Part shown: piece by piece, positions 15,707 through 49,894 of the stretch
How the letters are laid out: the number at the start of each line of letters is the position of its first letter
Numbering within the stretch: position 1 is the first letter of the stretch
Translations under genes and position numbers: made by a program
Source of the DNA: Christensenella intestinihominis
GTDB lineage: Bacteria; Bacillota; Clostridia; Christensenellales; Christensenellaceae
Assembly (NCBI RefSeq): GCF_001678845.1
Contig: NZ_MAIQ01000002.1
Span: 62,001 to 126,000 of the forward strand
Direction of reading: 5' to 3'
Length of the DNA stretch: 64,000 bases
The notes under the pieces: model-generated
Databases searched by the model: none
The model's input: only the letters and a program-made list of their open reading frames with translations
Told to the model about the DNA's origin: nothing

Positions 15707-16537
15707 TTAACGATTGGATTTCGCGTGCTTACGCAATGCCGCCGCACTCACCGCGATCCCGGCCGCCGCGATGCCCATCAGCGTGAGGAAAAGGGCCGTA
15801 TCGGCCTCGCCGCCCGTCTTGGGGGATTTTGTGTTATCGGTCGGCGCATCCGTCGGCGCTGCGTTATCCGTCGGCGTATCCGCCGGGGCGTCCGTCGGCG
15901 CTGTGGTCGGAGTGTCCGATGGGGTATCGGTCGGATCAACCGGGATCGCCTTCGTCAGCACTTTGATTGAGGCGTTGCCCGCGGGCATATCAAACGTAGT
16001 GGTTGCAGACCCCTGGTTTCCAAATGAGCCCTCGGTGCCGTCGATCTGGGACCACAGCCAAAACTGGCTGCCTTCCGGCGCCGGGTCCGCCGCAATGGTC
16101 ACTTGCGTACCCGCGGCATATTTACCGCTGCCGCTGCCGCCCTCCACGGTCAGGGTGAATTTTTCTTCTTCGAGCGTGACCGGCATGATAGAGACATCCA
16201 TGGCATCGGGGTTATAGCCGAAACCTGTGGAGATGCCTGATATTTTATATCCGGCTTTTTTTACCTCCCCTGCTATCATTGTAATATCTGAATCATCCAC
16301 ATCGCACGTCAGCGTTATGGAATACTTTCCATCCGCATCCGTCGTCGTGCTTCCGGATGCGCTTCCAACTTCCAACTTCACAGCGGCGCCCTCCACCGGT
16401 TTTCCATCCGCATCGACCACTTCCCCCTTGAAGGTAAGGTTCTGCGTGTATGTCGTTGCGAACGCGACGCCCGCCATGGACAGCACCAGCACCGCTGCGA
16501 GTACCAGCGGTACCATGATTTTGATTAGTTTTTTCAT
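15707..16537 (-). CDS. SPKTG-anchored surface protein with carboxypeptidase-regulatory-like domain (A)
   Basis: 276 residues. It has a signal peptide (KKLIKIMVPLVLAAVLVLSM, cleaved after AFA), a Cna-B/carboxypeptidase-regulatory-like beta sandwich (about 33-95; FKGEVVDADGKPVEGAAVKL), a repeat-like domain with GKYAAGTQVTIAADPAPEG, and a Thr/Asp/Pro-rich wall-spanning stretch. The C-terminal sorting signal is SPKTG, a hydrophobic helix and a basic tail. The sorting signal is nearly identical to that of the next protein upstream (protein B), so one sortase should handle both. The ATG follows AAGGAGAAAGAA. No enzyme activity is evident; adhesion or scaffold is only a guess. Confidence 0.85.
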   Translation of the reverse strand: MKKLIKIMVPLVLAAVLVLSMAGVAFATTYTQNLTFKGEVVDADGKPVEGAAVKLEVGSASGSTTTDADGKYSITLTCDVDDSDITMIAGEVKKAGYKISGISTGFGYNPDAMDVSIMPVTLEEEKFTLTVEGGSGSGKYAAGTQVTIAADPAPEGSQFWLWSQIDGTEGSFGNQGSATTTFDMPAGNASIKVLTKAIPVDPTDTPSDTPTTAPTDAPADTPTDNAAPTDAPTDNTKSPKTGGEADTALFLTLMGIAAAGIAVSAAALRKHAKSNR

Positions 16538-16567
16538 GTTTCTTTCTCCTTAACGTTTATTTATCGT

Positions 16568-16592
16568 CCGGGCACAGCCAGCCGCGCCCGGG
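16568..16592 (-). terminator. Weak hairpin between the two SPKTG genes
   Basis: CCGGGC pairs with GCCCGG across about 12 bases; there is no T run, so it may attenuate rather than stop transcription. Confidence 0.3.
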
Positions 16593-16604
16593 AACCCGCT
16601 TGCA

Positions 16605-17555
16605 TTAGCGGCCTGATTTCGCGTGCTTACGCAGCATACTCGCGCTGACCGCGATTCCCGCCGTGGCAATTCCCATCAACATAAGGAAGAGCGCCGTATC
16701 GGCCTCACCGCCTGTCTTGGGGGATTTTGTTCCGCTGCCGCCGGACGTATCGCCAGAACTGTTGCTGTCGCTGGTATTATCCGCACCGCCGTTACCGCTA
16801 TTGTCGTTGTTGTCACTGCTGCCGCTGTTATCCGTACTGCCGGTGCCACCGCCATTATTGTCCGTGCCGTCGTTCGGATCGTCCGGCGCGTCCTTATACA
16901 CCGCCGCCACCGACACAGTGCCTTCGGGCAGGTTGAACGAGTAGTAAGGCCACTCCTCGATTACCGCGCCGCTTGCGTCGAGGCACTGCCACTTATCGAA
17001 CGCCTTTCCCTCCGGCGCGGGAGAGGGAATGAGGGTCACCAGCTGGCCGGGTACCAGATCGCCGCTGGCGCCGCCACCCTCGAACGTGCCGCCTGTCACC
17101 GCCACGGGGGTCGTCTTTGCTTCGAACTGGATATTCTGTTTCACAATACTCATCTGGCCTACCCCCGTTGGCGGGGCCGGAGTGGTGATTGTGTATGAGT
17201 AACTGAACGCTTTGTGCTTGGCCGTTTCTTCGATTGAAATCGTACACTCATAAGTATTCCTCCCGTATTGGAGATCGGCATAGAGGTACTGCGGGAATCC
17301 ATAATAGCCGTTGCTGTCCGAGGTGAGGGTGTCGCTATACACTTCGGCCGCGGAACCATTAGGCCCCGTAATGACAACCTTCACGTCCTCGCCCGGCCAC
17401 CCTCTCTTGGTAACCGTATCGGTAACCCGGCCTTTAATCGCGTAAATTCCACCCGACGAGCCCGTGATTGACGCCGCCATCGCCGGAACCGCGAGCCCGA
17501 GCACCAGCACCGCCGCAAGAACCAGCGGCATTAGTATCTTCAATGTCTTTTTCAT
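16605..17555 (-). CDS. SPKTG-anchored surface protein with carboxypeptidase-regulatory-like domain (B)
   Basis: 316 residues. The signal peptide (LKILMPLVLAAVLVLGLAV, AMA site) precedes a carboxypeptidase-regulatory-like domain (about 40-110; IKGRVTDTVTKRGWPGEDVKV), a second beta domain with the PGQLVTLIPSPAPEGKAFDKW repeat-like signature, and a long Asn/Asp/Gly/Ser linker. The sorting signal SPKTGGEADTALFL, hydrophobic helix and KHAKSGR tail follow. The start was placed at the signal peptide behind GGGAGGAAG; a frame running 48 codons further upstream is not credible. The gene has an operator-like motif (17631-17654) 76 bases upstream that also precedes the kinase gene. Confidence 0.85.
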   Translation of the reverse strand: MKKTLKILMPLVLAAVLVLGLAVPAMAASITGSSGGIYAIKGRVTDTVTKRGWPGEDVKVVITGPNGSAAEVYSDTLTSDSNGYYGFPQYLYADLQYGRNTYECTISIEETAKHKAFSYSYTITTPAPPTGVGQMSIVKQNIQFEAKTTPVAVTGGTFEGGGASGDLVPGQLVTLIPSPAPEGKAFDKWQCLDASGAVIEEWPYYSFNLPEGTVSVAAVYKDAPDDPNDGTDNNGGGTGSTDNSGSSDNNDNSGNGGADNTSDSNSSGDTSGGSGTKSPKTGGEADTALFLMLMGIATAGIAVSASMLRKHAKSGR

Positions 17556-17630
17556 TTCTTTTCTTCCTCCCCAGGTATGATTTTTTTTCCGCTTTGATCT
17601 GCCCAAACCGTACAGACCGCCTATATTAAA

Positions 17631-17654
17631 ACAGTATACAGCAGGGTGTACACC
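17631..17654. promoter_or_regulatory. Shared operator-like motif upstream of SPKTG protein B
   Basis: ACAGTATAC-N8-GTACACC on the plus strand. The same 16 specified bases with the same 8-base spacer recur at 19884-19907 ahead of the histidine kinase gene. On the minus strand a TAATAT -10-like hexamer follows (near 17622-17627), so the motif would sit at or above the -35, as expected for an activator. Confidence 0.5.
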
Positions 17655-17753
17655 GCCTGACCACCGCGGAGCAGGGCGCTTCCGGAAAAAACGGATCAAA
17701 AAACGAGGAATACGGATTATTCCCCGGGCCGCCTTTTCATACGTGTTTGTGCG

Positions 17754-18542
17754 TTATTTCAGCAGCTTTTCGGAAAGCCTCGCGGCGGTGAACTCCGCCC
17801 AGCTGTAATTGTACATATATTCGCCGTCGTATGCTTTCAGGGCGGCGGGAACGCCGTCCAGGAAATCGTAATAATCGCATCGGACCTTTTTCGTATCGAT
17901 GGCAATATAGTTCCATTTGCGGATGATGATATCTTCGATTCCATGTTTTTTCAGGAAATCCATCAGCAGCAGTATCACATTCTGCACCATCTTTTGCATG
18001 GGGCGGTCATAGCCCCGTTCTTCCCAAAGGGCCGAGCAGATTTCGGCCGCCGTCACGCCGTCGCCGCGCCGGTCCACGAGGTAGGCAAGGAGTTCCTTGG
18101 CCTTGGAGCGCGTGCATACGAGGGGGCGTCCGTCGAGGAAAATTTCAAAGCTTCCAAAGCATTTGAACCGCACCCGCGCCAGCGCGACAGGGAAGCGCAG
18201 GTTTTCAAGCGCGTCCACAATGCTTTCCGGCCGCGCCGGTTTCAGGATATAACCGGAGGCGTACAGGGAAAACGCATCCTTTGCGTAATCCGAATAACCC
18301 GTAACAAAGATGATATTTGTTTTGGGGTTCCATTCCTTAAGGCGCGACGCAAGCAAAAGCCCGTCCACGCCGTTCATTTTCACGTCGAGGAACGCTACGT
18401 CCGGCGGAACGTCCCGCGCATGGGTAAGCGCGTCCGCGGGCGATGAAAAGCAGCGCGGCTCGCACCCCGGAACAGCCCTCCGTATGGCCCGCTCAAGGTC
18501 CGCAAGGGCGAGTGGTTCATCGTCTACAGCAAGCATATTCAT
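17754..18542 (-). CDS. Response regulator with SARP-type winged-helix output domain
   Basis: 262 residues. The receiver domain (1-115) has the acidic pair DDE at 7-9, phospho-acceptor D53 in FLDVKMNG, and K99 in YILKPA. The output domain (about 120-215; FKCFGSFEIFLDGRPL, RSKAKELLAYLV) is an OmpR/SARP-like winged helix, followed by a short helical tail. It overlaps the kinase gene by 4 bp and forms an obvious pair with it. It is encoded just upstream of the SPKTG genes, and the shared motif ahead of the kinase and protein B genes makes it the best candidate to regulate both. AGGAGGTC precedes the ATG. Confidence 0.9.
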   Translation of the reverse strand: MNMLAVDDEPLALADLERAIRRAVPGCEPRCFSSPADALTHARDVPPDVAFLDVKMNGVDGLLLASRLKEWNPKTNIIFVTGYSDYAKDAFSLYASGYILKPARPESIVDALENLRFPVALARVRFKCFGSFEIFLDGRPLVCTRSKAKELLAYLVDRRGDGVTAAEICSALWEERGYDRPMQKMVQNVILLLMDFLKKHGIEDIIIRKWNYIAIDTKKVRCDYYDFLDGVPAALKAYDGEYMYNYSWAEFTAARLSEKLLK

Positions 18543-19831
18543 TTGAAAAGACCTCCTTGGGGAACAATGATGGTGACGCCGGTTCCGGCGCCGGGGCCGC
18601 TCTTTATTTCGAGACTTCCGCCGCAGACGGAGGCGAGCCGCCCGCCGACGTTGGCAAGCCCCACATGGCCGCGCCCGTCCTGTTTCGGTTTTCCCGGTTC
18701 AAAGCCCGGGCCGTCGTCCGTAACGACAATATGGACCCCATCCTCTTTCCTGAACGTTTCGATGGTCACCGTTCCACCGTTTTTCCTGCCCTCGATTCCA
18801 TACCGCACCGCGTTTTCCACAACGGGCTGCAGCGTCAGGGCCGGAAGCATAAAATCCTCCGCTTCGATACGGAAAACGACGCGCAGCTTTTCGCCCAGCC
18901 GTTTTTCCTCCAGCGACAGGTACGCTTTCACATGCTCCAGTTCCTTTCGGAAGAGGATCATCCGTTCCTGCGTCAGTGAATCGATGTTCCCGCGCAGGTA
19001 ACTGGAAAACGTACCGATGGCCTCCCATGCCTCCTCCGGGTCGCGCATGCAAAGCTCGCGGATCGCGGTCAGGGAATTGTACAGGAAATGGGGCTGTATT
19101 TGGGAAAGCATAATATCGATCCTGCTTTCCGCAAGTTCCAATTCTTTTTCCTTCAACAGCCGTGTCTGGTCGCTTTGGATCACGATGTAAACGCCCAGCA
19201 CGAAAAGGGTCGTTGCGATATAGAGCAGCGCGATGCCGTAAATCCATGTTTGTACGACTGCCGCGATGCCGGGGGCCATGATATAGAGAAGAAACAGGTA
19301 AAATTCCTTTTTTTTCATGTGTTTGCGGTAACGAAAGATAACGCAGAGGTACACGGCTGCACAAAGGAGCCCTACGGCTTGGGAAAGCCAGAACCAATCC
19401 CCGCGGACATACATGTTGTTTTCGTCGATCCGGTAATACATATGGTTCCATTGGGAGATCACGACAAGCAGGATGCCCGTTGCGCATATCGCGCGGACAA
19501 TGCGAAAGGGACGGGGCGACGGCTTCGTTTTCGTCGCGATAAACGCCTCCAGGTAATCGGCAAATAGTGCCACGATGACGTAATCCAGGCAAAAGGCGCA
19601 GAAATTCGCAATGCGGACGCCATAATAATTCACCGGGTCCATCCCGCCCTTGAGGGCGATGGCGAGCGCGTCGCACAGCATAACGGCAATATTGCAGATC
19701 ACCACGCGCAGATAGAGCCGGTTGAGCCGCGTGTGCCTGTTTTCGCTGATTGCAAGGCAGAGAATGATGATAAACGAAATCAGGCTGCCAAAAATCTCGA
19801 GCGATATGTTAATGCTGCCAATCGTACCCAT
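18539..19831 (-). CDS. LytS/YesM-type sensor histidine kinase with seven membrane spans
   Basis: 430 residues. Seven hydrophobic segments fill residues 10-217 (roughly 10-28, 42-62, 72-92, 111-128, 146-166, 177-196, 198-217) with only short loops. A coiled linker and the His_kinase domain follow, with phospho-acceptor H248 in SQIQPHFLYNSL, then the HATPase domain (PVVENAVRYG, DDGPGFEPG, GHVGLANVGGRL). The input signal must be sensed in or near the membrane. It is cotranscribed with the response regulator (ATGA overlap). The motif at 19884-19907 lies 53 bases ahead of its start, suggesting autoregulation. Confidence 0.9.
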   Translation of the reverse strand: MGTIGSINISLEIFGSLISFIIILCLAISENRHTRLNRLYLRVVICNIAVMLCDALAIALKGGMDPVNYYGVRIANFCAFCLDYVIVALFADYLEAFIATKTKPSPRPFRIVRAICATGILLVVISQWNHMYYRIDENNMYVRGDWFWLSQAVGLLCAAVYLCVIFRYRKHMKKKEFYLFLLYIMAPGIAAVVQTWIYGIALLYIATTLFVLGVYIVIQSDQTRLLKEKELELAESRIDIMLSQIQPHFLYNSLTAIRELCMRDPEEAWEAIGTFSSYLRGNIDSLTQERMILFRKELEHVKAYLSLEEKRLGEKLRVVFRIEAEDFMLPALTLQPVVENAVRYGIEGRKNGGTVTIETFRKEDGVHIVVTDDGPGFEPGKPKQDGRGHVGLANVGGRLASVCGGSLEIKSGPGAGTGVTIIVPQGGLFK

Positions 19832-38279: not shown

Positions 38280-39755
38280 CTATTCTTCGTACATTTCGTA
38301 TGGAATACTGCGGACTGCTCCGCCTTTATAATTTTTATCCGTAGGGAAATAGGTCCCGTCTTTCTTCGACTGTTCGAGCCGCATTTTGGCCTGTGCAATG
38401 CCATCCTTGAACTGCGGAAGCCATTGTTCTTCGGCAACAAGCATCTCGTCCGTCATCTGGCGGATTTGCCGCGGGTCAAGCGCCGCGCCTGTAAGCGGAT
38501 CAAGCAGCATCGCCTGGTAAAGCTTTTTTACGTTGCCCGTGCAGGAGGCGTCCGTCGCAAGCTTATTGACCGTAACAAGCCGGTTGATTACTTCGACCTG
38601 CGCGTCGTCCATCTCCCCGTAAACCGGAACGTTGATCCCGTGGATATCCGCATAGCACGGCACTTCGACAATCGCTTCGTCCATAATATTCTTGATCGAT
38701 CCGTTATTCACGACGTTGATGTGCCCGCGGTATATCCGGTTGAGTTCCATGCCCTCCATCAGGAAGGATGCGTGTTCATGCGACCGTTTGCCCGCATCGA
38801 AAATGAGGCCGGGCGACTTCATCCTCAGCTCGTAGTTCTTGGCGGAAAGCTCCTGCTCCAGTTCGGACATCCCGTAATAGCCGTTCGTTTCGCCCGCAAA
38901 GCAGTGTACATAGCTGACCCAGTCGGCAAGGAGCTTCGGGTTGGTCCGGTACCACGGCACCAGGTCCGTAGTATGGCCGTTCTGTTCGGTGTTGTACGCC
39001 CCGAACCAGTCAAGCATATCACGGCGCGCCTTTTCCATTTCGCTGTATTTGGGATGCGCGGCATAGGCGTCCGCAAGCCCCGGGATCAGGTCCTTATGCC
39101 TTCCGGTTTCCCGGTCTGTCGTCCACACGTCGGTATAGAAGCCCATGTGGTTTACTCCAAGGCAGGTAATGTAAATATCTTCCACCGGCATATGGTATAC
39201 GCTTGCAAACTGCCTGTGGCCGATTCCCACGCCGTGGCACATGCCGATTGCCGGAACCTTTCCGTACTTGGCCGCTGCCCACGTGGTCATGGTCAGGGGA
39301 TTGGCGACATTGAAGAACATCGCGTCGTCCCGCGCGTATTGCTTCATATCCCTGCATATATCGAGCACAAGTGGGATCATGCGCTGCCCATACATGATGC
39401 CGCCCGCGCACAGGGTATCGCCCACGCACTGGTCGAGACCATAGGAGAGGGGAATCATCAGGTCGCATTCCCATCCCTTGAGTCCGCCGACCTTCGCCAT
39501 ATTGAAGACATATTTCGCGTCCTTGATTGCCTCGGCACGGTCGGTGGTGGCCTGTATTTTGATGGACAGGCCGTTTTCATCGATATCCCTCTGGCAGAGC
39601 GCCGTCGAGCGTTCCAGTTTCTCTTCGTCGATGTCGGTAAACGCGACGTCTATCTGCTGGAATTCAGGCACTGATAAAATATCGTAAACCAGCTTTTCCG
39701 CATATTCCACACTGCCGGCGCCCACAAACGCCACTTTGAATTTCTTGTAATCCAT
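38280..39755 (-). CDS. Glycoside hydrolase family 4 (NAD- and Mn-dependent)
   Basis: 491 residues. GH4 enzymes cleave glycosides by transient oxidation with NAD and a divalent metal. The dinucleotide loop FVGAGSVEYAEKL, an Asp after beta-2 (TDID, about 40-43), ANPLTMTTWA (Asn and Thr), metal ligand C173 in GMCHGVG and H203 in GVNHMGF are all present. Family activities range from alpha-glucosidase and alpha-galactosidase to uronidases; the ABC (not PTS) context argues for a non-phosphorylated substrate. AGGAGG precedes the ATG. It lies between the permease and the VOC gene. Confidence 0.9.
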   Translation of the reverse strand: MDYKKFKVAFVGAGSVEYAEKLVYDILSVPEFQQIDVAFTDIDEEKLERSTALCQRDIDENGLSIKIQATTDRAEAIKDAKYVFNMAKVGGLKGWECDLMIPLSYGLDQCVGDTLCAGGIMYGQRMIPLVLDICRDMKQYARDDAMFFNVANPLTMTTWAAAKYGKVPAIGMCHGVGIGHRQFASVYHMPVEDIYITCLGVNHMGFYTDVWTTDRETGRHKDLIPGLADAYAAHPKYSEMEKARRDMLDWFGAYNTEQNGHTTDLVPWYRTNPKLLADWVSYVHCFAGETNGYYGMSELEQELSAKNYELRMKSPGLIFDAGKRSHEHASFLMEGMELNRIYRGHINVVNNGSIKNIMDEAIVEVPCYADIHGINVPVYGEMDDAQVEVINRLVTVNKLATDASCTGNVKKLYQAMLLDPLTGAALDPRQIRQMTDEMLVAEEQWLPQFKDGIAQAKMRLEQSKKDGTYFPTDKNYKGGAVRSIPYEMYEE

Positions 39756-39791: not shown

Positions 39792-40754
39792 CTAAGCGAT
39801 TTTCTGGGTTTCCCTGTTCCTCGAAAGGCAGTCGAACCCTACTGCCAGCAGCAATACGACGCCCTTTACCACCAACTGCGGATACTCGCCCACATTGAGG
39901 AGCACGAATCCGTTCGTCAGTACGCCAATGATGAGCACGCCGATAATCACACTGGATATCTTTGCACGTCCGCCCGAAATGCTGACCCCGCCAAGCACTA
40001 CGGCGGTCAGTACATCGAATTCAAAATCCTTTCCGGTCAGCGGCGAACCGGAATTGAGACGCGAAAGCATGATGATTCCGGCAATGCCTACGAACAGTCC
40101 GCAGATCGAATAGGCCAGGCGCTTCATGCGGTTGACCTCAATGCCTGAAAGCTCGGCGGCCGTCTCGTTTCCGCCGATTGCAAAGAAGTATCGCCCAAAA
40201 TAGGTTTTAGTGAGAATAAACCATCCCACAATCAGGCAGCCCACCATGATAATGACCGGAACCGGGATGACTCCCCCGACAAAGCCCTGCCCGAGGCCCC
40301 GGAAGCTTTCCGGGAAGCCTATGATCGATTGTCCGTTCGAGATCATATAGGCAATGCCCCGCAGGATGCTCATCATGGCAATCGTGGCGATCATCGGCGG
40401 CATATTCGTTTTGGTGATAATCGCTCCGTTGAGATAGCCGATCAGAATCGTGAGCACGATCACGACCGTGCAGGCAAGTATGGGGTCCAGGCCCATTTTC
40501 GCCATCATATATGCGCAAAGCACGTTTCCAAAGGTGATCTGCGAGCCGATGGACAGGTCGATCCCTCCCGTGAGCAGTACAAGCGTCTGGCCTACGCCCG
40601 CAATCGCGATCATGGAGACCTGCCGCAGGATATTCGTAAAGTTTGAAAAATCGAAAAATGTCGGCGACAGGCATGTAAAGATCACAATCTCAATAATAAA
40701 GACAATGAAAACGCCGTATTTTTTTGCGATTGTCCCGATCGAAATGTTTTTCAT
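39792..40754 (-). CDS. Ribose-type sugar ABC permease (RbsC family)
   Basis: 320 residues with about nine or ten hydrophobic spans. RbsC landmarks are LVLLTGGIDLSIGSQ, LNGAIITKTNMPPMIATIAMMS, FAIGGNETAAELSGI (the EAA-like loop that contacts the ATPase) and VLGGVSISGGRA. It forms the membrane channel with the ATPase encoded next to it. Start: ATG at 40752-40754, right after the ATPase stop, with GGGGGG upstream. Confidence 0.93.
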   Translation of the reverse strand: MKNISIGTIAKKYGVFIVFIIEIVIFTCLSPTFFDFSNFTNILRQVSMIAIAGVGQTLVLLTGGIDLSIGSQITFGNVLCAYMMAKMGLDPILACTVVIVLTILIGYLNGAIITKTNMPPMIATIAMMSILRGIAYMISNGQSIIGFPESFRGLGQGFVGGVIPVPVIIMVGCLIVGWFILTKTYFGRYFFAIGGNETAAELSGIEVNRMKRLAYSICGLFVGIAGIIMLSRLNSGSPLTGKDFEFDVLTAVVLGGVSISGGRAKISSVIIGVLIIGVLTNGFVLLNVGEYPQLVVKGVVLLLAVGFDCLSRNRETQKIA

Positions 40755-40756
40755 AA

Positions 40757-42253
40757 TCAATTCCCCCCCGTTTTCGATGCATAATGCAGAATTTTTTCCT
40801 TGTCGAAATCCTCATGCGTCAGTTCCGCCGTCATATTGCCTTCGCACAGCACGATCATGCGGTCGGCCATGCCGATCAGTTCTTCCATTTCTGACGTAAT
40901 CATGATAATCGCCTTGCCGTTTTCCACCAATTCGTTCATTATCATATAGATTTCATGTTTTGCACCCACGTCGATTCCGCGGGTTGGTTCGTCCAGGATG
41001 ATAAGGTCGGGCTCGGTCGCCAGCCATTTTGCCAGTACGACCTTCTGCTGGTTGCCCCCCGAAAGGCTGTTGACCTCCTGTGTCATGGTCGGCGTCTTGA
41101 TTCTCAGGCTTTCCCTGAATTCGTGCGCTACGCTCTTTTCCTTTTGTTTATCGATGACCGTTAATTTGGAAAGCCTGCGCAGTTGTGCCAGGGTGATATT
41201 GTCCTGTACGGACAACTCGAGGATGGCGCCCTGCTGCTTCCTGTCCTCAGGCACCAGCGCAATCCCGTGATCCACCGCCTGCGCCGGGGACCTCGGCTGT
41301 ACTTTTTCCCCTTTAAAAATGATTTCCCCCGACTCCGGACGCGCCATGCCGAAGATCATCTGCGCCAGCTCCGTACGGCCCGCGCCCATGATCCCCGCGA
41401 AGGCAAGTATCTCGCCTTTGCGCACATGGAAGGATATATCCTTCACCCCATTTCCCGTCAGGTGTTTTGCCTCCAGCACGATCTCTCCATAAATATTTTC
41501 CTTCCGCTTGGGAAAGGTCTCCTTGAGTTCGCGGCCCACCATCAGCTTGATAAGTTCTTCCCGGTTGGTCTCCGCCGTATTCATTGTTTTAATCAGCTGC
41601 CCGTCGCGCAGAACGGACACCCGGTCGGATATGCTGAATATTTCCTCCAGGCGGTGCGAGATATATACGATCGTAACGCCTTCCGCCTTCAGCTGGGCGA
41701 TGATCCCCATCAGGATATCCACCTCCGCCGTTGTAAGCGGCGCGGTCGGTTCGTCCATAACCAGTATCTTTGCGTTCTTGGAAATAGCCTTTGTGATTTC
41801 CACCATCTGCTGGTACCCGATGCTCAGGTTTTCCACCAGCGACCTCGGGTCCATCGTCATATGGAACCGCTTGAGTATTTTTGTGGTTTCCTGCTCCATG
41901 CGCTTCATGTCCGGAACAACCCCTTTGCGGATCGGGCATCCTAGGAATACGTTTTCCGCTACGCTGAGCTCGTTTACCAGATTGAATTCCTGATAGATAA
42001 CCGCAATGCCGTTTTCCTGCGACAGCGCGGGCGAAAGCTTGTCAAACCGTTTCCCGTCTATGATGATCTCGCCGCTCGTGGGGGTGACCGCCCCGCTGCA
42101 GGTTTTAATCAGGGTCGATTTTCCCGCGCCGTTTTCGCCGACCAGCGCATGGACCTCCCCCTGCCTGAAATCGATCGTGACGTCATCCAGCGCAACCGTC
42201 CCCGGATATCTTTTGGTAATGTTTTTAAATTCCAGAATTACCTGCTCTCCCAC
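40757..42253 (-). CDS. Ribose-type sugar ABC ATPase with two intact nucleotide-binding domains (RbsA/MglA family)
   Basis: 498 residues, two tandem NBDs. NBD1: Walker A GENGAGKST, Q-loop VIYQEF, signature LSIGYQQ, Walker B ILVMDEPT, H-loop YISHRL. NBD2: a Walker A-like GIMGAGRTE (as usual in RbsA), signature LSGGNQQ, Walker B LIILDEPTRGID. It powers uptake with the permease directly downstream. It is the functional reference against which the degenerate paralog at 47708-49183 stands out. The binding-protein gene is upstream, with a hairpin in between. Confidence 0.95.
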   Translation of the reverse strand: MGEQVILEFKNITKRYPGTVALDDVTIDFRQGEVHALVGENGAGKSTLIKTCSGAVTPTSGEIIIDGKRFDKLSPALSQENGIAVIYQEFNLVNELSVAENVFLGCPIRKGVVPDMKRMEQETTKILKRFHMTMDPRSLVENLSIGYQQMVEITKAISKNAKILVMDEPTAPLTTAEVDILMGIIAQLKAEGVTIVYISHRLEEIFSISDRVSVLRDGQLIKTMNTAETNREELIKLMVGRELKETFPKRKENIYGEIVLEAKHLTGNGVKDISFHVRKGEILAFAGIMGAGRTELAQMIFGMARPESGEIIFKGEKVQPRSPAQAVDHGIALVPEDRKQQGAILELSVQDNITLAQLRRLSKLTVIDKQKEKSVAHEFRESLRIKTPTMTQEVNSLSGGNQQKVVLAKWLATEPDLIILDEPTRGIDVGAKHEIYMIMNELVENGKAIIMITSEMEELIGMADRMIVLCEGNMTAELTHEDFDKEKILHYASKTGGN

Positions 42254-42342: not shown

Positions 42343-43404
42343 TTAAAGCGCGATGTTCTCCCTTGTGATGAAATCGTCGATATTCGATGCGTCAAGCTTT
42401 TCCAGTTCGGAAAGGTAAACGTCTTCGAGCGGATCGCCGTTCACGATCATCATGGAAAGCTCGTACAGCTTATTCGCCATATATGAATCGCTGCCCACGC
42501 ATACCGTCGCCAAAAGCGGATTGCTTTGGTCCTTGACTGCCGACAGGATGTCGGTCGTCGTGTCGACACCGAACACGCCGATCTTGCCGTCATTTTTCCC
42601 TGCCGCGATCAGCGCTTCGCTGCCGCCCATCGCTCCGCCGCCGGTGGTGGAGATAACTGCCACAAGGTCCGGGGTCGCCTGGATCATATTCTCTACGACC
42701 TTCATGCCCTGTTCTATATTCTCTGCCGGCTGTTCCGCAACGATTTCCACGTCGGGAACCATCTTGCCGATTGCATCCTTTGCTCCGTTATACCTGTCGA
42801 TTGCCGACTGTGCGACGAGCGGGCCTGTGACAATCCCGATCTTGCCCTTGCTGTCATAATTTTCCTTGATCCAGTCCGCGCACATTTCGCCGCTCGCATA
42901 TCCGATATCGTAATTCGGGCAGACAAGCGCTGTTGTGTTTCCTTCAACCTCTACGCCGTAGCCGATAACCGGGACGCCCGCTGCGACCGCTTCCTTCACG
43001 GAGCTGCTCGCCGCGGAGGGATCGACCGCCTCGCAGATGATGATGGCGTCAACCTTGTTCTGGACAAAGTTCTCGATCTGGGACGCCATCTTGGAAGGAT
43101 CGTTGGATGCGGAAACCAGCGTCAGCTGTACGCCGTTTTCATCACATATTCCCTGTAGGATGTTGGTGATCGAGGTGTAGGCGGGAATCGTCAGGTCCTT
43201 AGACGTAAGGCCGATGGTGATTTCCTTTTTGTCGGCTCCCGCGCTTTGTCCGGCGTCGCTTTTTGCCGCGTCGCCCTGCGCTTGTGAATTCTCCGCCGGA
43301 GTTTCCGCAGCGTTTGCGCTCCCGTTCTCCGCCGGTGCCGAGCATGCCGCCAATGCCGCGATGACCAACAGGCAAGCCAACAATAATGCAATCCTCTTCT
43401 TCAT
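42343..43404 (-). CDS. Sugar-binding lipoprotein of the ribose-type ABC importer
   Basis: 353 residues. Signal peptide KKRIALLLACLLVIAAL with lipobox LAAC, an Ala/Asn/Glu-rich linker to about residue 60, then a type I periplasmic-binding fold (ITIGLTSKDLTIPAYTSI, VDAIIICEAVDPSA, GVPVIGYGVEVEG, VFGVDTTTDILSAV). The ligand is probably a monosaccharide or small glycoside. GAGGAAC precedes the ATG. It is the most upstream transport gene, placed after the dehydrogenase gene. Confidence 0.93.
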   Translation of the reverse strand: MKKRIALLLACLLVIAALAACSAPAENGSANAAETPAENSQAQGDAAKSDAGQSAGADKKEITIGLTSKDLTIPAYTSITNILQGICDENGVQLTLVSASNDPSKMASQIENFVQNKVDAIIICEAVDPSAASSSVKEAVAAGVPVIGYGVEVEGNTTALVCPNYDIGYASGEMCADWIKENYDSKGKIGIVTGPLVAQSAIDRYNGAKDAIGKMVPDVEIVAEQPAENIEQGMKVVENMIQATPDLVAVISTTGGGAMGGSEALIAAGKNDGKIGVFGVDTTTDILSAVKDQSNPLLATVCVGSDSYMANKLYELSMMIVNGDPLEDVYLSELEKLDASNIDDFITRENIAL

Positions 43405-43491: not shown

Positions 43492-44529
43492 TTAGGCCTT
43501 GCCGCCGTCGGTAAAATCGAACATTACCTTTTGCGGCACGCCCGTTTTCCGCACTTCCAGTGCCTTTTCCCAATCCTCCGGTTTAAAGATATGCCTGATA
43601 AACGGTTTTTTGTCGATCCTTTGGAATAGTTCAAGCGCCCTCGGATACATGTAGGGCGATTGGAATACTCCGACAATCTTCACCTCTTTGGTAAAGAACG
43701 ACGCGAGATCGAGGGAATAGGCGGCCTGTTTCCCATAACACGCGAACAGCTCGAGCGTGCCGCCCCTGCCGAGAATCTCGTAGGCTGTCTGTATGACCGG
43801 CACTACTCCCGACGACTCCACAACCACATCGAAGCCCATGCCGTCCGTGATTTCCAGGCTGCGCGCCAAAACGTCTTCTTTCTTGGGGTCGATCACATAG
43901 TCCGCTCCCATTTTAAGGGCCATTTCGCGCTTTTCTTCAACCGGCTCGATTACCGTCAGCCGTGCCGCCCCCGCAAGGCGCAGCAACTGAACGAACAGCA
44001 TGCCGATTCCGCCGCCGCCCGTGACGGCAACCTTCATCCCCGGGCGCAGCCCAAGGAGGTCTATCCCGCGCTGTACGACGGATATGGGCTCGATCAAAGC
44101 CGCCTCGCGCATATCCGTATCATCCGGGAGTTTGAATACCTGCTGTTCGTTTACCACCGCGTAGTCTGCAAAAAAACCTCCGCGGGACTGCATGTTGGAA
44201 CAGAACTGCTCTTGTCCGTTACGGCAGTAATAGCACTTCCCGCAATGCTGGTTATAATAAAGAGCGACCTTATCTCCTTTTTTGAGTCCTTTAGCCGTCG
44301 CTTTCGGCCCCAGCTCCGCAACGTAGCCTGCGGCCTCGTGCCCGAGGATATAGCAATCCCCTTTTTTAATTTTGAGAAAATCATCCTCGTGCCCGTTCAT
44401 AATGTTGATGTCGGACCCGCAAATTCCCGCATAGGCAATGCGTACAAGTACATCGTCGGGATAAATGGTTTCCGGTTGTTTCAGGTTGTACAGATGCGTT
44501 CCCGGACAGGTATAGCAAAGCGCCCTCAT
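43492..44529 (-). CDS. Zinc-dependent medium-chain dehydrogenase (sorbitol/threonine dehydrogenase-like)
   Basis: 345 residues. Catalytic zinc ligands are in GICGSD and GHEAAG; the structural zinc site is CGKCYYCRNGQEQFC; the cofactor loop is VTGGGGIGML, with VIEP at the end of beta-2 (NAD-type). It oxidises an alcohol group of a sugar or polyol. The start ATG at 44527-44529 follows GGGGGAATT; a frame 9 codons longer is unsupported. It is the first gene of the catabolic operon, facing the divergent regulators. Confidence 0.92.
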   Translation of the reverse strand: MRALCYTCPGTHLYNLKQPETIYPDDVLVRIAYAGICGSDINIMNGHEDDFLKIKKGDCYILGHEAAGYVAELGPKATAKGLKKGDKVALYYNQHCGKCYYCRNGQEQFCSNMQSRGGFFADYAVVNEQQVFKLPDDTDMREAALIEPISVVQRGIDLLGLRPGMKVAVTGGGGIGMLFVQLLRLAGAARLTVIEPVEEKREMALKMGADYVIDPKKEDVLARSLEITDGMGFDVVVESSGVVPVIQTAYEILGRGGTLELFACYGKQAAYSLDLASFFTKEVKIVGVFQSPYMYPRALELFQRIDKKPFIRHIFKPEDWEKALEVRKTGVPQKVMFDFTDGGKA

Positions 44530-44617
44530 ATATAAATTCCCCCTTTTTTGATACAATGATGGAGTAACCCGGTCGTTCGTCTGTCTTTTATTTTTTTCAA
44601 CTCAATGATTGATCGGT

Positions 44618-44629
44618 GGGTGGCCACCC
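44618..44629. promoter_or_regulatory. Perfect 12-bp palindrome (operator candidate)
   Basis: GGGTGGCCACCC, about 90 bases upstream of the dehydrogenase start, in otherwise AT-rich DNA. Confidence 0.4.
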
Positions 44630-44740
44630 TGATGATGCTTTTATCATATTGATTTTTCCTGCTGCATTCAATACGGCAATATTTATTATTTGTGCACAAT
44701 TTTAATGTCCTGTAAAAAAAATGACGAAATATGACCCGTA

Positions 44741-44770
44741 TGTGATAAAATAAGATGAAATAATATCACA
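44741..44770. promoter_or_regulatory. Inverted repeat TGTGATA-N16-TATCACA (operator candidate)
   Basis: Seven-base perfect arms around an AT-rich 16-base spacer, near the middle of the divergent region. Confidence 0.4.
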
Positions 44771-44988
44771 GATGATTTACGGAAATTCCATGTCTTTCTT
44801 TATTTTGATTACGCGACTTATTCAAAGAATTCTAAAAGAACGGCAAACGATTGAGATCAGCGTATTTCAATATAAGCGCAATTGTGGGCGCACCTTTGTT
44901 CCGCGGGCAAGATGAAGTTTGACAGGCGCCATGTGAATAGGCCCCAAAAATTTGACATATTTTAATTTAACATTGGAAAGGTATCGGT

Positions 44989-46617
44989 ATGAAGATTGTA
45001 ATTGTGGATGATGAAATCTATATTATTGAAATGCTGAAATCCCTCATCGAATGGGATTCGCTCGGGGTAACGCTTGCGGGTGTTGCCACGGACGGGATTT
45101 CCGCCGAGGAGCTCATCGACAGCGTGTGCCCGGATATCGTAATTACCGATATCCGCATCCCCGGTTTCGACGGCCTCGAGCTGATCCGCCGCTGCCGCCA
45201 GAAGAACATGCAGATGCAGTTTATTATCATCAGCGGCTTCAGGCAATTTGAATACGCCCGCAATGCCATTCGCTACGGCGTGAAAGAATATCTGCTCAAG
45301 CCCATCAAAAAAAGCGAGCTCAATACGGCGATCAAGGGGCTGGCCGCCCAAATCAGCGAAAACTCCAAGCGTGCCAAATTCCTGGAACGGCAGAATTCCC
45401 TGCTCACCTTCAGCCAGAGCCGCCTGCAAAGCGAATTTATGGAAACGCTGGTGGAAAACCCGGGCCTCCTCGACCGTCCGCTCGGGGATATCAACCGTGA
45501 CTTTATGCTGGCCTTTAAAGAGGGGATGTTCCGGGTAGCCGTCTGCAAGATCGACGTGGATTCCGGGACGGACAGCGGCGCAGGGGATTACTTCGTTGAC
45601 TCCCTGAAGGAGAAGATCGTATCGGATATCAGCGAGGCCGCCGCTCCTTTTTGCCATACTGTGCTGTATACGGGGAAAACAATGCGCATTTATTTCCTGC
45701 TGAATTACGCTCCTGAAAACAGGGACGCCCTTAACAATGCGGTTTCCGGGGCGTTTTCTTCCCTGCATAAATACGCTGCAAAATTTGAGGCCATTGATGT
45801 TTCATTCGGTTTTGGAGACGAGGTGAGCGGGCCATGCGGGCTTGCCGAATCGGCAAATGGGGCCGAAAACGCAGTTCGCCAGCGCATCGTCTGCGGATGC
45901 AACCATATCCTGCACCCAGTGTACGCTTCCTTTCCCGATCCTTCCGAGGTCTTTACAATCACCGAGCAGCGGCTGATGAAAAAAAACATCGAATGCTTCG
46001 ACCTTAAGGCGCTCGAGCAGCAATGCCAGACCTTCTTTACCCAGGCTGAATTGCTCGATATCAAAAACGCTCTTTTCTTTTGGGAATTGTGCCGCGGTAT
46101 TCTTGCTTGCTTCCAGAATGCCCTTATTTCCATGCGCCTGGCCGAAGAAGACGAGCGCGCGAAAGCGGCCGGGGGCCTGGAAAACCTGCTCGACAATTGT
46201 TCCGGCCTGCGGCGTTTCAGGAAATGCTTTATTGAGTTCATCACCGGGCAGCTGCAAAAGTATTACGATATTGAAGATTCCTCCGAGAACGTCGCAGTCA
46301 TAATCGCGAAAAAATACATTGCAAACCATTACGCCGATAAAATATTACTTAAGGACATTGCAGAGCAGGTCTATCTTAACCCGGTTTATTTCAGCATTTG
46401 TTTTAAGCGCGACACAGGCCTTAATTTCGTGGACTATTTAAACGAATACCGGATCGAAAAAGCAAAGGAAAAACTGAAAACGGTGCATTACAGCATTTCG
46501 GAAATTGCAGAAAGCGTCGGGCTTCCCAACGTCCGGTATTTTTCAAAAACTTTCAAGCGATACGTCGGCCTGTCACCCGCGGAATACCGCAAACGATATG
46601 GAAGCCTCGGTATTTAA
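44989..46617 (+). CDS. AraC-type response regulator (YesN family)
   Basis: 542 residues. Receiver domain (1-120) with DDE at 7-9, phospho-acceptor D54 in ITDIRIPGFDG, and KP in YLLKPIKK. A long middle domain (about 130-430) has no clear motif. The C-terminal AraC domain (about 440-540) shows both helix-turn-helix units (LKDIAEQVYLNPVYFSICFKR and ISEIAESVGLPNVRYFSKTFKR in outline). It should activate the divergent sugar operon. GGAAAGG precedes the ATG. It is the first gene of a three-gene unit with the kinase and a degenerate ATPase. Confidence 0.92.
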   Translation: MKIVIVDDEIYIIEMLKSLIEWDSLGVTLAGVATDGISAEELIDSVCPDIVITDIRIPGFDGLELIRRCRQKNMQMQFIIISGFRQFEYARNAIRYGVKEYLLKPIKKSELNTAIKGLAAQISENSKRAKFLERQNSLLTFSQSRLQSEFMETLVENPGLLDRPLGDINRDFMLAFKEGMFRVAVCKIDVDSGTDSGAGDYFVDSLKEKIVSDISEAAAPFCHTVLYTGKTMRIYFLLNYAPENRDALNNAVSGAFSSLHKYAAKFEAIDVSFGFGDEVSGPCGLAESANGAENAVRQRIVCGCNHILHPVYASFPDPSEVFTITEQRLMKKNIECFDLKALEQQCQTFFTQAELLDIKNALFFWELCRGILACFQNALISMRLAEEDERAKAAGGLENLLDNCSGLRRFRKCFIEFITGQLQKYYDIEDSSENVAVIIAKKYIANHYADKILLKDIAEQVYLNPVYFSICFKRDTGLNFVDYLNEYRIEKAKEKLKTVHYSISEIAESVGLPNVRYFSKTFKRYVGLSPAEYRKRYGSLGI

Positions 46618-46637
46618 GCCGCACGCAGGAGAAGACT

Positions 46638-47711
46638 ATGAAAACAACAGACAGCCATAAAAACATATTTTCCCGCAAGCTGGCAATCGTATTCTGTATT
46701 TTTTCCGCAATCCTCGCCTTCGTAATCCTTTTCCCGAGCGTGACTTTCGCCCCTCTCCCCTTCGACACCCTCCCGTATATCCTGTGGTTTGTCCTTTCGA
46801 TTATTTTCCTCGCCGTTTTTGTCCTGTTTTTTTACCGCAGCGTTTACAAACCAATCATGCATCTCGAATTCAGGCTGCGCACGCTTTACGGGAACATATC
46901 CCCGAACCGCAAGGAAAATGACCGCATAACTTCCGTTCCGCTTGAGGTCATGCTGGAAGAAATTTTCGAATACCAGCAAACCTTTGCCAACCGCGAACTG
47001 ACACTTCAATATCTCCGCACGGAAGCCGAATTAAGCGCCTTACAAAGCCAGATCAATCCTCATTTCCTGTTCAACACCCTGGAGTCGATCCGCGGATGCG
47101 CGGAGAAGAACGGGATCGCGGAAATCGCGGATATCACGGAAGCAATTTCAAACCTGTTTCGGAACAGCATACAGGGGCCCGGCACCCTTGCCACCCTTGC
47201 CGATGAGATCGACAACGTTCGCAATTATATGCTGATCCAGGAATTCCGCTTCCCAGGGAAATTCAAATTTGAACTGAATTATCCATCCAACGATTTTTCG
47301 CTGCTTCAGTACCAGCTTCCCAATTTAACGATCCAGCCCCTTGTGGAAAACTCGATTTTCCACGGCCTTGAGTTAATTCCTTCCGGCGGACGGATTGGCC
47401 TCGACATCTACACCACCGAGTCGCGGCTCGTGATCCGTGTAAGCGACAATGGCTGCGGCATCCCCAAAAACAGGCTTGCCAACCTGAACGAGCGGCTTTC
47501 GTCCGGCGAAATACTCAGCGGCGGCCACCAATCATCCTCTACGGGAACGGGAATTGGGCTCACCAACATCCACCAGCGCATACAGCTCCAGTTCGGAGCC
47601 CAGTATGGGCTGACGGTAGCGAGCACGCTCAACATTGGAACCGAGGTCGAGGTTACCCTGCCGCTGCTCTGCACACCCTCTGACGTGCAGGAACGGGAGG
47701 CCGTACCATGA
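46638..47711 (+). CDS. YesM-type histidine kinase with minimal extracytoplasmic domain
   Basis: 357 residues. Two spans (about 14-32 and 47-66) enclose a loop of only about 14 residues, then a short linker, coiled region, DHp with H142 in SQINPHFLFNTLES, and HATPase (QPLVENSIFHG, DNGCGIPKNR, GTGIGLTNIHQRI). Ordinary YesM kinases have a large external sensor; here there is none, so ligand must be sensed through another protein or the membrane. The stop overlaps the start of the pseudo-ATPase gene by 4 bp (ATGA). CAGGAGAAG lies before the ATG. Confidence 0.9.
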   Translation: MKTTDSHKNIFSRKLAIVFCIFSAILAFVILFPSVTFAPLPFDTLPYILWFVLSIIFLAVFVLFFYRSVYKPIMHLEFRLRTLYGNISPNRKENDRITSVPLEVMLEEIFEYQQTFANRELTLQYLRTEAELSALQSQINPHFLFNTLESIRGCAEKNGIAEIADITEAISNLFRNSIQGPGTLATLADEIDNVRNYMLIQEFRFPGKFKFELNYPSNDFSLLQYQLPNLTIQPLVENSIFHGLELIPSGGRIGLDIYTTESRLVIRVSDNGCGIPKNRLANLNERLSSGEILSGGHQSSSTGTGIGLTNIHQRIQLQFGAQYGLTVASTLNIGTEVEVTLPLLCTPSDVQEREAVP

Positions 47712-49183
47712 TTAAAGAAATATTACGCGCCGAAAACATCACAACCGCAAATAATTATTTTCCTGCGCTTAATAACGCATGGCTGAACGTGCGGGACGGC
47801 GAAACGGTCGGCCTGCTCGGCCTGAATGGCTCCGGCAAATCCGCGCTGATTAAAACACTCTGCGGGATACGGCCTCTTGCGCGGGGGCGTATCTACCTGA
47901 ACGAAAAGCCCGTCAGCTTCAGGAATTACCACGATGCGCAGAGCCACGGGGTTTTTTGTATTGACCGGCTCGAGGTATTGTTTTCGGAGATGAGCGTTGC
48001 CGACAATATTTTCCTTACAAACGGCCGCAATCCCGGCCCCGTTATCCGCGAGGGGTTTTTAAGGCACAAGGCGCGCAAGCTTCTTTCGTCCCTTGAAATT
48101 GGCCTGTCCGGGGACGAGGCGGCCAACCAGCTTTCAAGCCTCCAGCAGTTGGAGGTGCTGATCGCCAAGGCAGTGGCGGAAAATGCACGCATCATTATTA
48201 TCGAGAGCATTTTATCGGAATTCGGGGAAGAACAGTTAGGCGAGATATCCGCGCTCCTGCACCGTATCAACGAAAAAGGAATTTCCCTGATTATTTCAGA
48301 TTATATGCCCCGCCCGCTCGCTGAATTGTGCAGCCGTATCTTTGTCCTCCGCGAAGGGAGCATCGCAAGCGTGTGCCACACCCCCTGCGACGAAGGCCTG
48401 CTTGGCACCCTCATGGTGGGCCGCGAGCCGGACCCGATGCCCTTTGCGGCGCCAAGCCCGCAGGAGCCGTTGGAAAAAGTTTTTGAATTCTGCAGTGTTG
48501 CAGATGAAAGTACGCTTTTTGGATTGTCGTTTTCGGTTTTCCGGAACCAGGTAACAGGAATACTGAGCCGCGATGAAATCATTAACCGGCATATTGTAAA
48601 GCTGCTGCGCCAGCGCAGCGGATATTCCGGCTCCATCCGGCTGAATGGCGCGTGCGGATTCGATCCCAAACGGATCGGCATTGTTCCTGAAGGCGACGTC
48701 ATTTTCGACAATCTCTCTCTTTTTGAAAACATCATACTGCTCGCTCAAAAAGAATACAATTCCCCCCTCGGCCTGATTTATCGTCAAAGGATACGGACGA
48801 TTTACTCCGAGGTTATCCTTCCATTTTTTGGAACCGAATTAAAAAAAATGCGTAAATATGATATTTCAAGCCTTGACCGCGTCATGCGCAAGGAAATCAG
48901 TATCTGCCGCCAGTTGATGGTCAATCCTTCGGTCCTGCTCTTAATCAATCCCACAAAAACACTGGACCATCCGTCTGCCTCCGCTGTCCTGAAAAAAATT
49001 TCCGAACTCAGCAGGGCTTTAATTCCTTCCTGCATTATTTCCGGAAACATATACGAACAACTGTCCATATGCAGGAAAATTTATTTTATCGGCAACGGGC
49101 AGACCGAACGGGAATTCGATCTCTCCGTCGATACGCCGGAAGCCGTCCTCGACTATTACCGTACATATTTTGTGAAAGGATAG
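47708..49183 (+). CDS. Degenerate RbsA-like tandem ATPase, proposed signalling subunit
   Basis: 491 residues, collinear with RbsA. In NBD1, Walker A is intact (GLNGSGKS, 38-45), but the signature is LSSLQQ, Walker B reads IIIIES (Asp to Glu, catalytic Glu to Ser, 162-167) and the H-loop His is Asp (IISDYM, about 198). In NBD2, Walker A is lost (ILSRDEII, about 285-292), the signature is LDRVMRK, and Walker B reads LLINPT (413-414 Ile-Asn for Asp-Glu). It may bind ATP at one site but should not hydrolyse it. It is translationally coupled to the kinase. Transport ATPase function is unlikely; a sensory or adaptor role is proposed. Confidence 0.82.
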   Translation: MIKEILRAENITTANNYFPALNNAWLNVRDGETVGLLGLNGSGKSALIKTLCGIRPLARGRIYLNEKPVSFRNYHDAQSHGVFCIDRLEVLFSEMSVADNIFLTNGRNPGPVIREGFLRHKARKLLSSLEIGLSGDEAANQLSSLQQLEVLIAKAVAENARIIIIESILSEFGEEQLGEISALLHRINEKGISLIISDYMPRPLAELCSRIFVLREGSIASVCHTPCDEGLLGTLMVGREPDPMPFAAPSPQEPLEKVFEFCSVADESTLFGLSFSVFRNQVTGILSRDEIINRHIVKLLRQRSGYSGSIRLNGACGFDPKRIGIVPEGDVIFDNLSLFENIILLAQKEYNSPLGLIYRQRIRTIYSEVILPFFGTELKKMRKYDISSLDRVMRKEISICRQLMVNPSVLLLINPTKTLDHPSASAVLKKISELSRALIPSCIISGNIYEQLSICRKIYFIGNGQTEREFDLSVDTPEAVLDYYRTYFVKG

Positions 49184-49237: not shown

Positions 49238-49834
49238 TTACCGGTTGGCCACTTCCCCCGCCCATTTGAAAAACGTGGCATGCGTCACCTTGAGCCTGCG
49301 CGCGGCCTCACGGCCGCTGATATGCTTTTTCTTCCACAACAAATATACGTCGGGGAATTCCGCCGGGATGGGCTTTACGGGCCGTCCGAAACGGACTCCG
49401 CGCAGCTTTGCGGCGGCAATTCCTTCCGCCTGGCGCTGGCGGATGTTTTCCCGTTCCTGCTGCGCGACGTAGGAAAGAAGCTGGAGCACGATATCCGCGA
49501 TCAGGGTCCCCGTGAGGTCCCGCCCCTGCCGCGTATCAAGCAGCGGCATATCCTGCACCACAACCTGCGCGCCCTTTTCCTTTGTAATAATCCGCCACTG
49601 GGCAATAATTTCTTCGTAGTTGCGCCCCAGCCGGTCAATAGAATGGATGACCAAAAGGTCTTCCCGCCTCAGCCGGCGCAGCATCCTGCGGTACTGCGGA
49701 CGGTTAAAATCCTTCCCGCTCAGCTTATCGAGAAAAATATTTTCTCGCTCTACCGGAAACTGCATAAGCGAAATCATCTGCCTGTCTTCGTTTTGCTCCC
49801 GTGTCGATACCCTCGCATAACCGTAAATATTCAT
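49238..49834 (-). CDS. Orphan serine recombinase (resolvase/invertase type)
   Basis: 198 residues. The catalytic domain has YARVSTREQNEDRQ with the nucleophile Ser near residue 10 and IDRLGRN near 75; RQAEGIAAAKLRGVRFGRP leads to a C-terminal helix-turn-helix (SGREAARRLKVTHATFFKW). It is a complete small resolvase. AGGAGG precedes the ATG. No transposase, terminal repeats or cargo were seen, so it may be a remnant of a mobile element or a solo resolvase. It is convergent with the pseudo-ATPase gene. Confidence 0.88.
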   Translation of the reverse strand: MNIYGYARVSTREQNEDRQMISLMQFPVERENIFLDKLSGKDFNRPQYRRMLRRLRREDLLVIHSIDRLGRNYEEIIAQWRIITKEKGAQVVVQDMPLLDTRQGRDLTGTLIADIVLQLLSYVAQQERENIRQRQAEGIAAAKLRGVRFGRPVKPIPAEFPDVYLLWKKKHISGREAARRLKVTHATFFKWAGEVANR

Positions 49835-49894
49835 GTTCAATCCTCCTGTAGATGGTTTGCATTCACAGAATAACACGTTTTTTAACGAAAACAC

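Follow-up and report, generated by a model that had tools for sequence, protein, structure and literature searches.

What could be the role of an RbsA-like tandem ATPase that has lost nearly all of its catalytic motifs and is encoded directly behind a two-component system? The question is raised by a three-gene module of Christensenella intestinihominis, located in a 64,000-nucleotide stretch of contig NZ_MAIQ01000002.1 (hereafter, the window). The first gene (44989..46617, + strand) codes for an AraC-type response regulator with Pfam Response_reg (receiver) and HTH_18 domains, the second (46638..47711, +) for a YesM/LytS-type histidine kinase of 357 aa, in which Pfam detects only His_kinase and HATPase_c, and the third (47708..49183, +) for the degenerate ATPase, of 491 aa, which we term ABCx. 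The reading frames of the kinase and of ABCx share 4 bp (ATGA); the coordinates, the gene order and this overlap had been given in an earlier note on the same DNA and were all correct on re-checking. A Resolvase-family serine recombinase is encoded directly downstream of ABCx and convergent to it (49238-49894, - strand).

The gene layout places a divergent promoter region (44557..44988), the presumed target of the response regulator, between the module and an operon on the opposite strand. The first gene of this operon codes for a zinc-type alcohol/polyol dehydrogenase (43492..44556, -; Pfam ADH_N and ADH_zinc_N), whose real start is probably downstream of the listed TTG. It is followed by genes for an RbsB-like sugar-binding protein (42343..43404, -; Peripla_BP_4), an RbsA-type ATPase with every motif present in our motif tables (40757..42253, -), an RbsC-type permease (39792..40760, -; BPD_transp_2), which is the proposed docking partner of ABCx, and, downstream, a family 4 glycoside hydrolase (38280..39755, -; Glyco_hydro_4 and 4C). 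The divergent operon is, as the earlier note had it, that of a full importer with an intact ATPase. Judging from gene layout and Pfam, no second dedicated solute-binding protein lies beside the kinase, and the importer's own is the only one. A comparison of the divergent promoter region of the window with that of its ortholog (locus L029, see below) gave no convincing shared regulator-binding repeat.

We aligned ABCx with the intact importer RbsA encoded at 40757-42253. The only catalytic motif left is Walker A1 (GLNGSGKSA). Domain 1 has lost the Q-loop (IDRLE), the signature (LSSLQQL), Walker B1 (IIIIES) and the H-loop (ISDYM), and domain 2 has lost Walker A2 (SRDEI), the second signature (LDRVMRK) and Walker B2 (LLINPT), confirming the earlier claim that only the first Walker A survives, all others being lost or altered. 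The alignment is collinear over the full length, and both halves were modelled as NBDs: an AlphaFold2 model built with 19 family sequences was confident (mean pLDDT of 86), domain 1 matched solved NBDs in a fold comparison with Z of about 25, and in the model of domain 2 the predicted elements follow the same order as in an NBD. Searches of solved structures with ABCx returned generic NBDs only, and a search of the PDB with the intact RbsA returned no chain at E 1e-40. The best NCBIfam matches of ABCx are RbsA, XylG and MglA, the proteins with which it shares fold and tandem arrangement, but the top score is 147.9 bits against a cut-off of 699, and with at most 148 bits, where the cut-offs are about 590-850, ABCx falls under the curated family thresholds. 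By sequence and predicted structure, then, ABCx appears to be a full-length, well-folded protein that is catalytically dead.

The kinase encoded immediately upstream is itself unusual, a point that the earlier note did not make. Hydropathy analysis reveals two adjacent transmembrane segments (residues 9-43 and 44-71); an extracellular domain is lacking, and the protein has no Pfam match to HAMP. The catalytic His142 and the N and G boxes are intact in an alignment of six such sensorless kinases. With its His_kinase and HATPase_c domains and an AraC-type response regulator as partner the protein resembles the YesM/YesN systems, but the large extracellular sensor domain of a typical YesM kinase is missing; the closely related kinases of this genome that are not accompanied by ABCx occupy open frames of 536-650 aa, as compared to 357 aa in the window.

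The 3.0 Mb genome codes for more than 50 RbsA-type (CUT2) tandem ATPases, a large repertoire of monosaccharide importers, and, beyond what the earlier note had seen, it contains several further ABCx-type loci. We scored 52 RbsA-type proteins for seven motifs each. Eight are encoded next to a regulator, four with a response regulator and kinase (the window, L031, L032 and L033), two with a DeoR-type protein (L034 and L044) and two with an AraC-type protein (L054 and L058). Five proteins keep two motifs or fewer, and all five are among these eight; none is among the 44 importer copies, which retain 5-7 of the 7 motifs (Fisher p = 2e-5). In congeners, the window module has an ortholog at L029, where ABCx is 38% identical and kinase, regulator and divergent importer all recur, and the L032 module has one at L062, with 67% identity and the same context. 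Co-transcription of ABCx and kinase is not universal, because at the latter two loci the genes of ABCx and kinase are convergent, with an overlap of about 55 bp at the 3' end of the kinase gene (L032:5944-8407; L062:6682-9154).

Searches of relatives with ABCx itself were swamped by intact RbsA copies, and a scan of genome contigs with the window protein alone was likewise uninformative, most of its hits being importer ATPases with intact motifs or NBDs of unrelated kinds. For this reason, we built a profile from the six sensorless kinases, leaving the ATPase out, and ran it against 297 genomes from the order, 398 from the phylum and three smaller groups. The first loci had been picked for their similarity, and long and short kinases were compared on the basis of 22 profile hits. 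All 15 new kinases that lack an ectodomain (334-368 aa) are encoded next to an RbsA-like protein whose catalytic motifs are lost, in the order regulator-kinase-ABCx, whereas none of the seven with a large ectodomain (roughly 220-290 aa, assumed for L113, which is cut at its N terminus) has an RbsA-like neighbor. The pairing is thus nearly all-or-none (15/15 versus 0/7; Fisher p = 6e-6), although this value, like the one given above, somewhat overstates the evidence since related genomes are not independent draws. The three-gene module is conserved across families: sensorless modules occur under nine family labels (f1, f7, f22, f24, f33, f44, f64, f131 and f136) and are uncommon, with a match in about 3% or fewer of the sampled genomes at the thresholds used. 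Wherever the readable flanks extend far enough, an importer with an intact RbsA adjoins the module, and all catalytic residues are present in the importer RbsA at 21 of 21 loci; at L103, L104 and L132, where a contig end or short flank intervenes, no importer is in view. At L097-L102, ABCx and the importer operon share one orientation.

Three further hits (L106-L108) have an ectodomain of about 95 aa, and a partly degenerate ABCx is encoded upstream of the kinase. Together with L031 and L077 they form a set of intermediates, in which a small ectodomain (about 95-120 aa) goes with a partly degenerate ABCx, and this suggests that ectodomain and catalysis were lost stepwise. L077, with a larger-ectodomain kinase and an ABCx that retains nearly all motifs, counts against the explanation that we favor below. 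The earlier note had proposed to check whether homologs always follow a YesM-type kinase and an AraC regulator and always lack the Walker B and H-loop residues. Homologs do so, beside full importers and with a consistent loss of these residues, but the earlier interpretation proved too narrow, as the same clade also pairs with DeoR and with one-component AraC proteins, and many of the copies paired in that way still look catalytic.

The clade was defined with FastTree on 120 RbsA-type proteins, 37 of which are encoded beside a regulator (response regulator and kinase, AraC or DeoR). All 37 fall on one side of a single bipartition (support 0.984), apart from the importer RbsA proteins. The clade persists when the long-branch dead copies are removed (0.961) and with domain 1 alone (0.941); with domain 2 alone it is not clean, four importers joining it. 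Each of the groups is intact in the tree: the two-component-linked copies (0.957), the AraC-linked (0.989), the DeoR-linked (0.872) and the dead ones (0.997), and the DeoR- and AraC-linked copies are the groups nearest to the two-component type. The grouping of the L044 ATPase with DeoR-linked copies prompted a search of its surroundings, and an intact deoR-type gene was found just upstream. Second RbsA-like ATPases near an importer are linked to DeoR, within the operon, at L034, L044, L063, L076, L081, L088 and L089, and to AraC, divergent from the regulator gene, at L054, L058, L078 and L079; most of these orphan ATPases keep many catalytic motifs, but that of L044 does not. Overall, the findings are best read as an RbsA lineage dedicated to regulators, in which the most extreme members provide a sensorless kinase with its signal input.

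Could ABCx instead be a decaying pseudogene, the relic of a duplicated importer ATPase? Most catalytic residues are gone, scattered or absent across the 26 two-component-linked copies, and divergence is strong, with 19-24% identity between subfamilies. The open frame, however, is full-length at 26 of 26 of these loci, and ABCx is under purifying selection, with dN/dS values of 0.143 (dS 1.6), 0.075 (dS 0.9) and 0.041 (dS 0.12) for three pairs. Moreover, new motifs have become conserved: YICNH, QPF and DINN in one widespread lineage, and Glu4 and Arg7 near the N terminus, which are near-invariant in ABCx and variable in importers. Single decayed copies devoid of conserved neighbors, which the earlier note would have taken as the sign of a pseudogene, did not turn up; the orthologs at 67% and 38% identity share their context, and the pairing with sensorless kinases is constant. 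We regard decay as largely refuted and extremely improbable. It also seems improbable, if a little less so, that ABCx serves the importer as a structural, non-catalytic component with an effect on transport alone, in which case operon packing would account for its proximity to the kinase. Its place in the importer neighborhood, and its orientation with the importer operon at L097-L102, would fit such a role, but ABCx tracks the type of kinase, most importers encoded in this genome lack such a partner, and the tree sorts the copies by type of regulator.

The main rivals concern how a regulatory ABCx would work. It may be that ABCx alone senses a cytosolic ligand (a nucleotide, a phosphosugar or a metabolite) and relays it to the kinase with no contact to the permease. 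In favor of this, the kinase lacks an extracellular domain, ABCx is a soluble protein, the window copy has an intact Walker A1, and cytosolic AraC and DeoR regulators, which do not require a membrane partner, pair with copies of the same clade. Conversely, an importer adjoins every module with sufficiently readable flanks. Furthermore, 10 of the 21 ABCx proteins that partner sensorless kinases have lost the P-loop lysine, so that conservation does not extend to a canonical nucleotide site. Among these 21, a full Walker A is essentially confined to the window copy, and none has a working motif set; our scoring of the Walker B2 glutamate also accepts D and Q and hence overcounts ABCx. The suggestion of the earlier note that the protein reads the ATP state is thereby weakened, and ATP sensing as a general, family-wide mechanism is unlikely. 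Alternatively, ABCx could be an adaptor by which the kinase or the regulator is kept inactive at the idle transporter, a negative regulator rather than a sensor relay. In the maltose system, MalK tethers MalT and keeps it inhibited in the absence of transported substrate (PMC10427625), and the DeoR- and AraC-linked sister copies, having no kinase, could act directly on the transcription factor; by itself, though, such an adaptor leaves unexplained why kinases devoid of an ectodomain pair with a dead ABCx. Ligand sensing and the adaptor role both strike us as unlikely, to a similar degree.

We favor the explanation that ABCx is a paralog of importer ATPases that has given up catalysis and provides the signal input of a sensorless kinase, and we consider it, as a whole, fairly probable. 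That ABCx is a regulatory subunit of the kinase is its firmest part: this is well supported by gene anatomy, and we believe it to be very likely. As to mechanism, our first choice is that ABCx docks on the permease and reads the state of the binding protein or of the permease. One segment that follows the Q-loop, L[ST]VA[ED]NI, is as conserved in ABCx as in importers while the catalytic residues are lost, and the conserved Asn100 and, in domain 2, Asn341 (window numbering) belong to such segments. In importer NBDs this segment presumably lies near the coupling helix of the permease, and it may do so in ABCx as well. ABCx could thus sit at the cytosolic face of the RbsC-type permease, replacing RbsA or beside it, and touch the membrane-proximal part of the kinase; docking on the permease is a reasonable proposal, held tentatively. 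A sugar-loaded binding protein would then alter the shape of the permease and, because ABCx cannot hydrolyze ATP, the complex would signal instead of transporting. The kinase would phosphorylate the AraC-type regulator, which in turn would control the divergent importer operon. The sign and order of these signaling steps are more doubtful. Possibly, an RbsA-type lineage left transport and gave rise to dedicated sensory subunits for DeoR, AraC and two-component regulators; at the extreme, a dead ATPase would replace the ectodomain of the kinase in a complex of binding protein, permease, pseudo-ATPase and kinase, a transporter scaffold used purely for signaling. We consider this broader scenario slightly less likely than not.

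In XylFII-LytS-YesN, a three-component system, a dedicated paralog of a transporter subunit serves as signal receptor. CuaD-CuaSR is of the same kind, with the paralog encoded beside the two-component system and acting for an ABC sugar importer (PMC10384115). In both cases the recruited paralog is an extracellular solute-binding protein that acts on the ectodomain of the kinase, whereas ABCx is a cytosolic ATPase and its kinase has no ectodomain. In the latter respect, the window kinase resembles that of BceRS-BceAB, which also lacks an extracellular sensing domain and takes its input from an ABC transporter (PMC7828314). BceA, however, is an active ATPase, part of a transporter for antibiotic detoxification, and the permease BceB has a large extracellular loop; here we find a separate RbsA paralog, dead by its motifs, with a YesM-type kinase, an AraC-type regulator and a neighboring sugar importer of the RbsABC type, and the contrast with BceRS drawn in the earlier note stands. 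MalK of E. coli is another importer-type ATPase tied to a transcription regulator, as it controls MalT (PMC10427625), but it works in its own maltose transporter, whereas the paralog in the module described here is dedicated, non-catalytic and joined to a two-component system. BceRS, CuaD and MalK all do without a dedicated dead ATPase. The transporter-coupled sensing known before involves working transporters or recruited binding proteins, and the literature that we searched, in which subscription papers are mostly not included, held no earlier description of a dead ATPase as kinase input. As this large, unnamed ATPase clade matches only the models of sugar-importer ATPases, predictions of transport at such loci may mislead.

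The window codes for a further NPHFLYN-type kinase (17754-19831, - strand), of 430 aa and with several N-terminal hydrophobic segments. It is accompanied by a response regulator with a C-terminal part of SARP-like appearance, and surface-anchor-like proteins (15707-17699) adjoin the pair.
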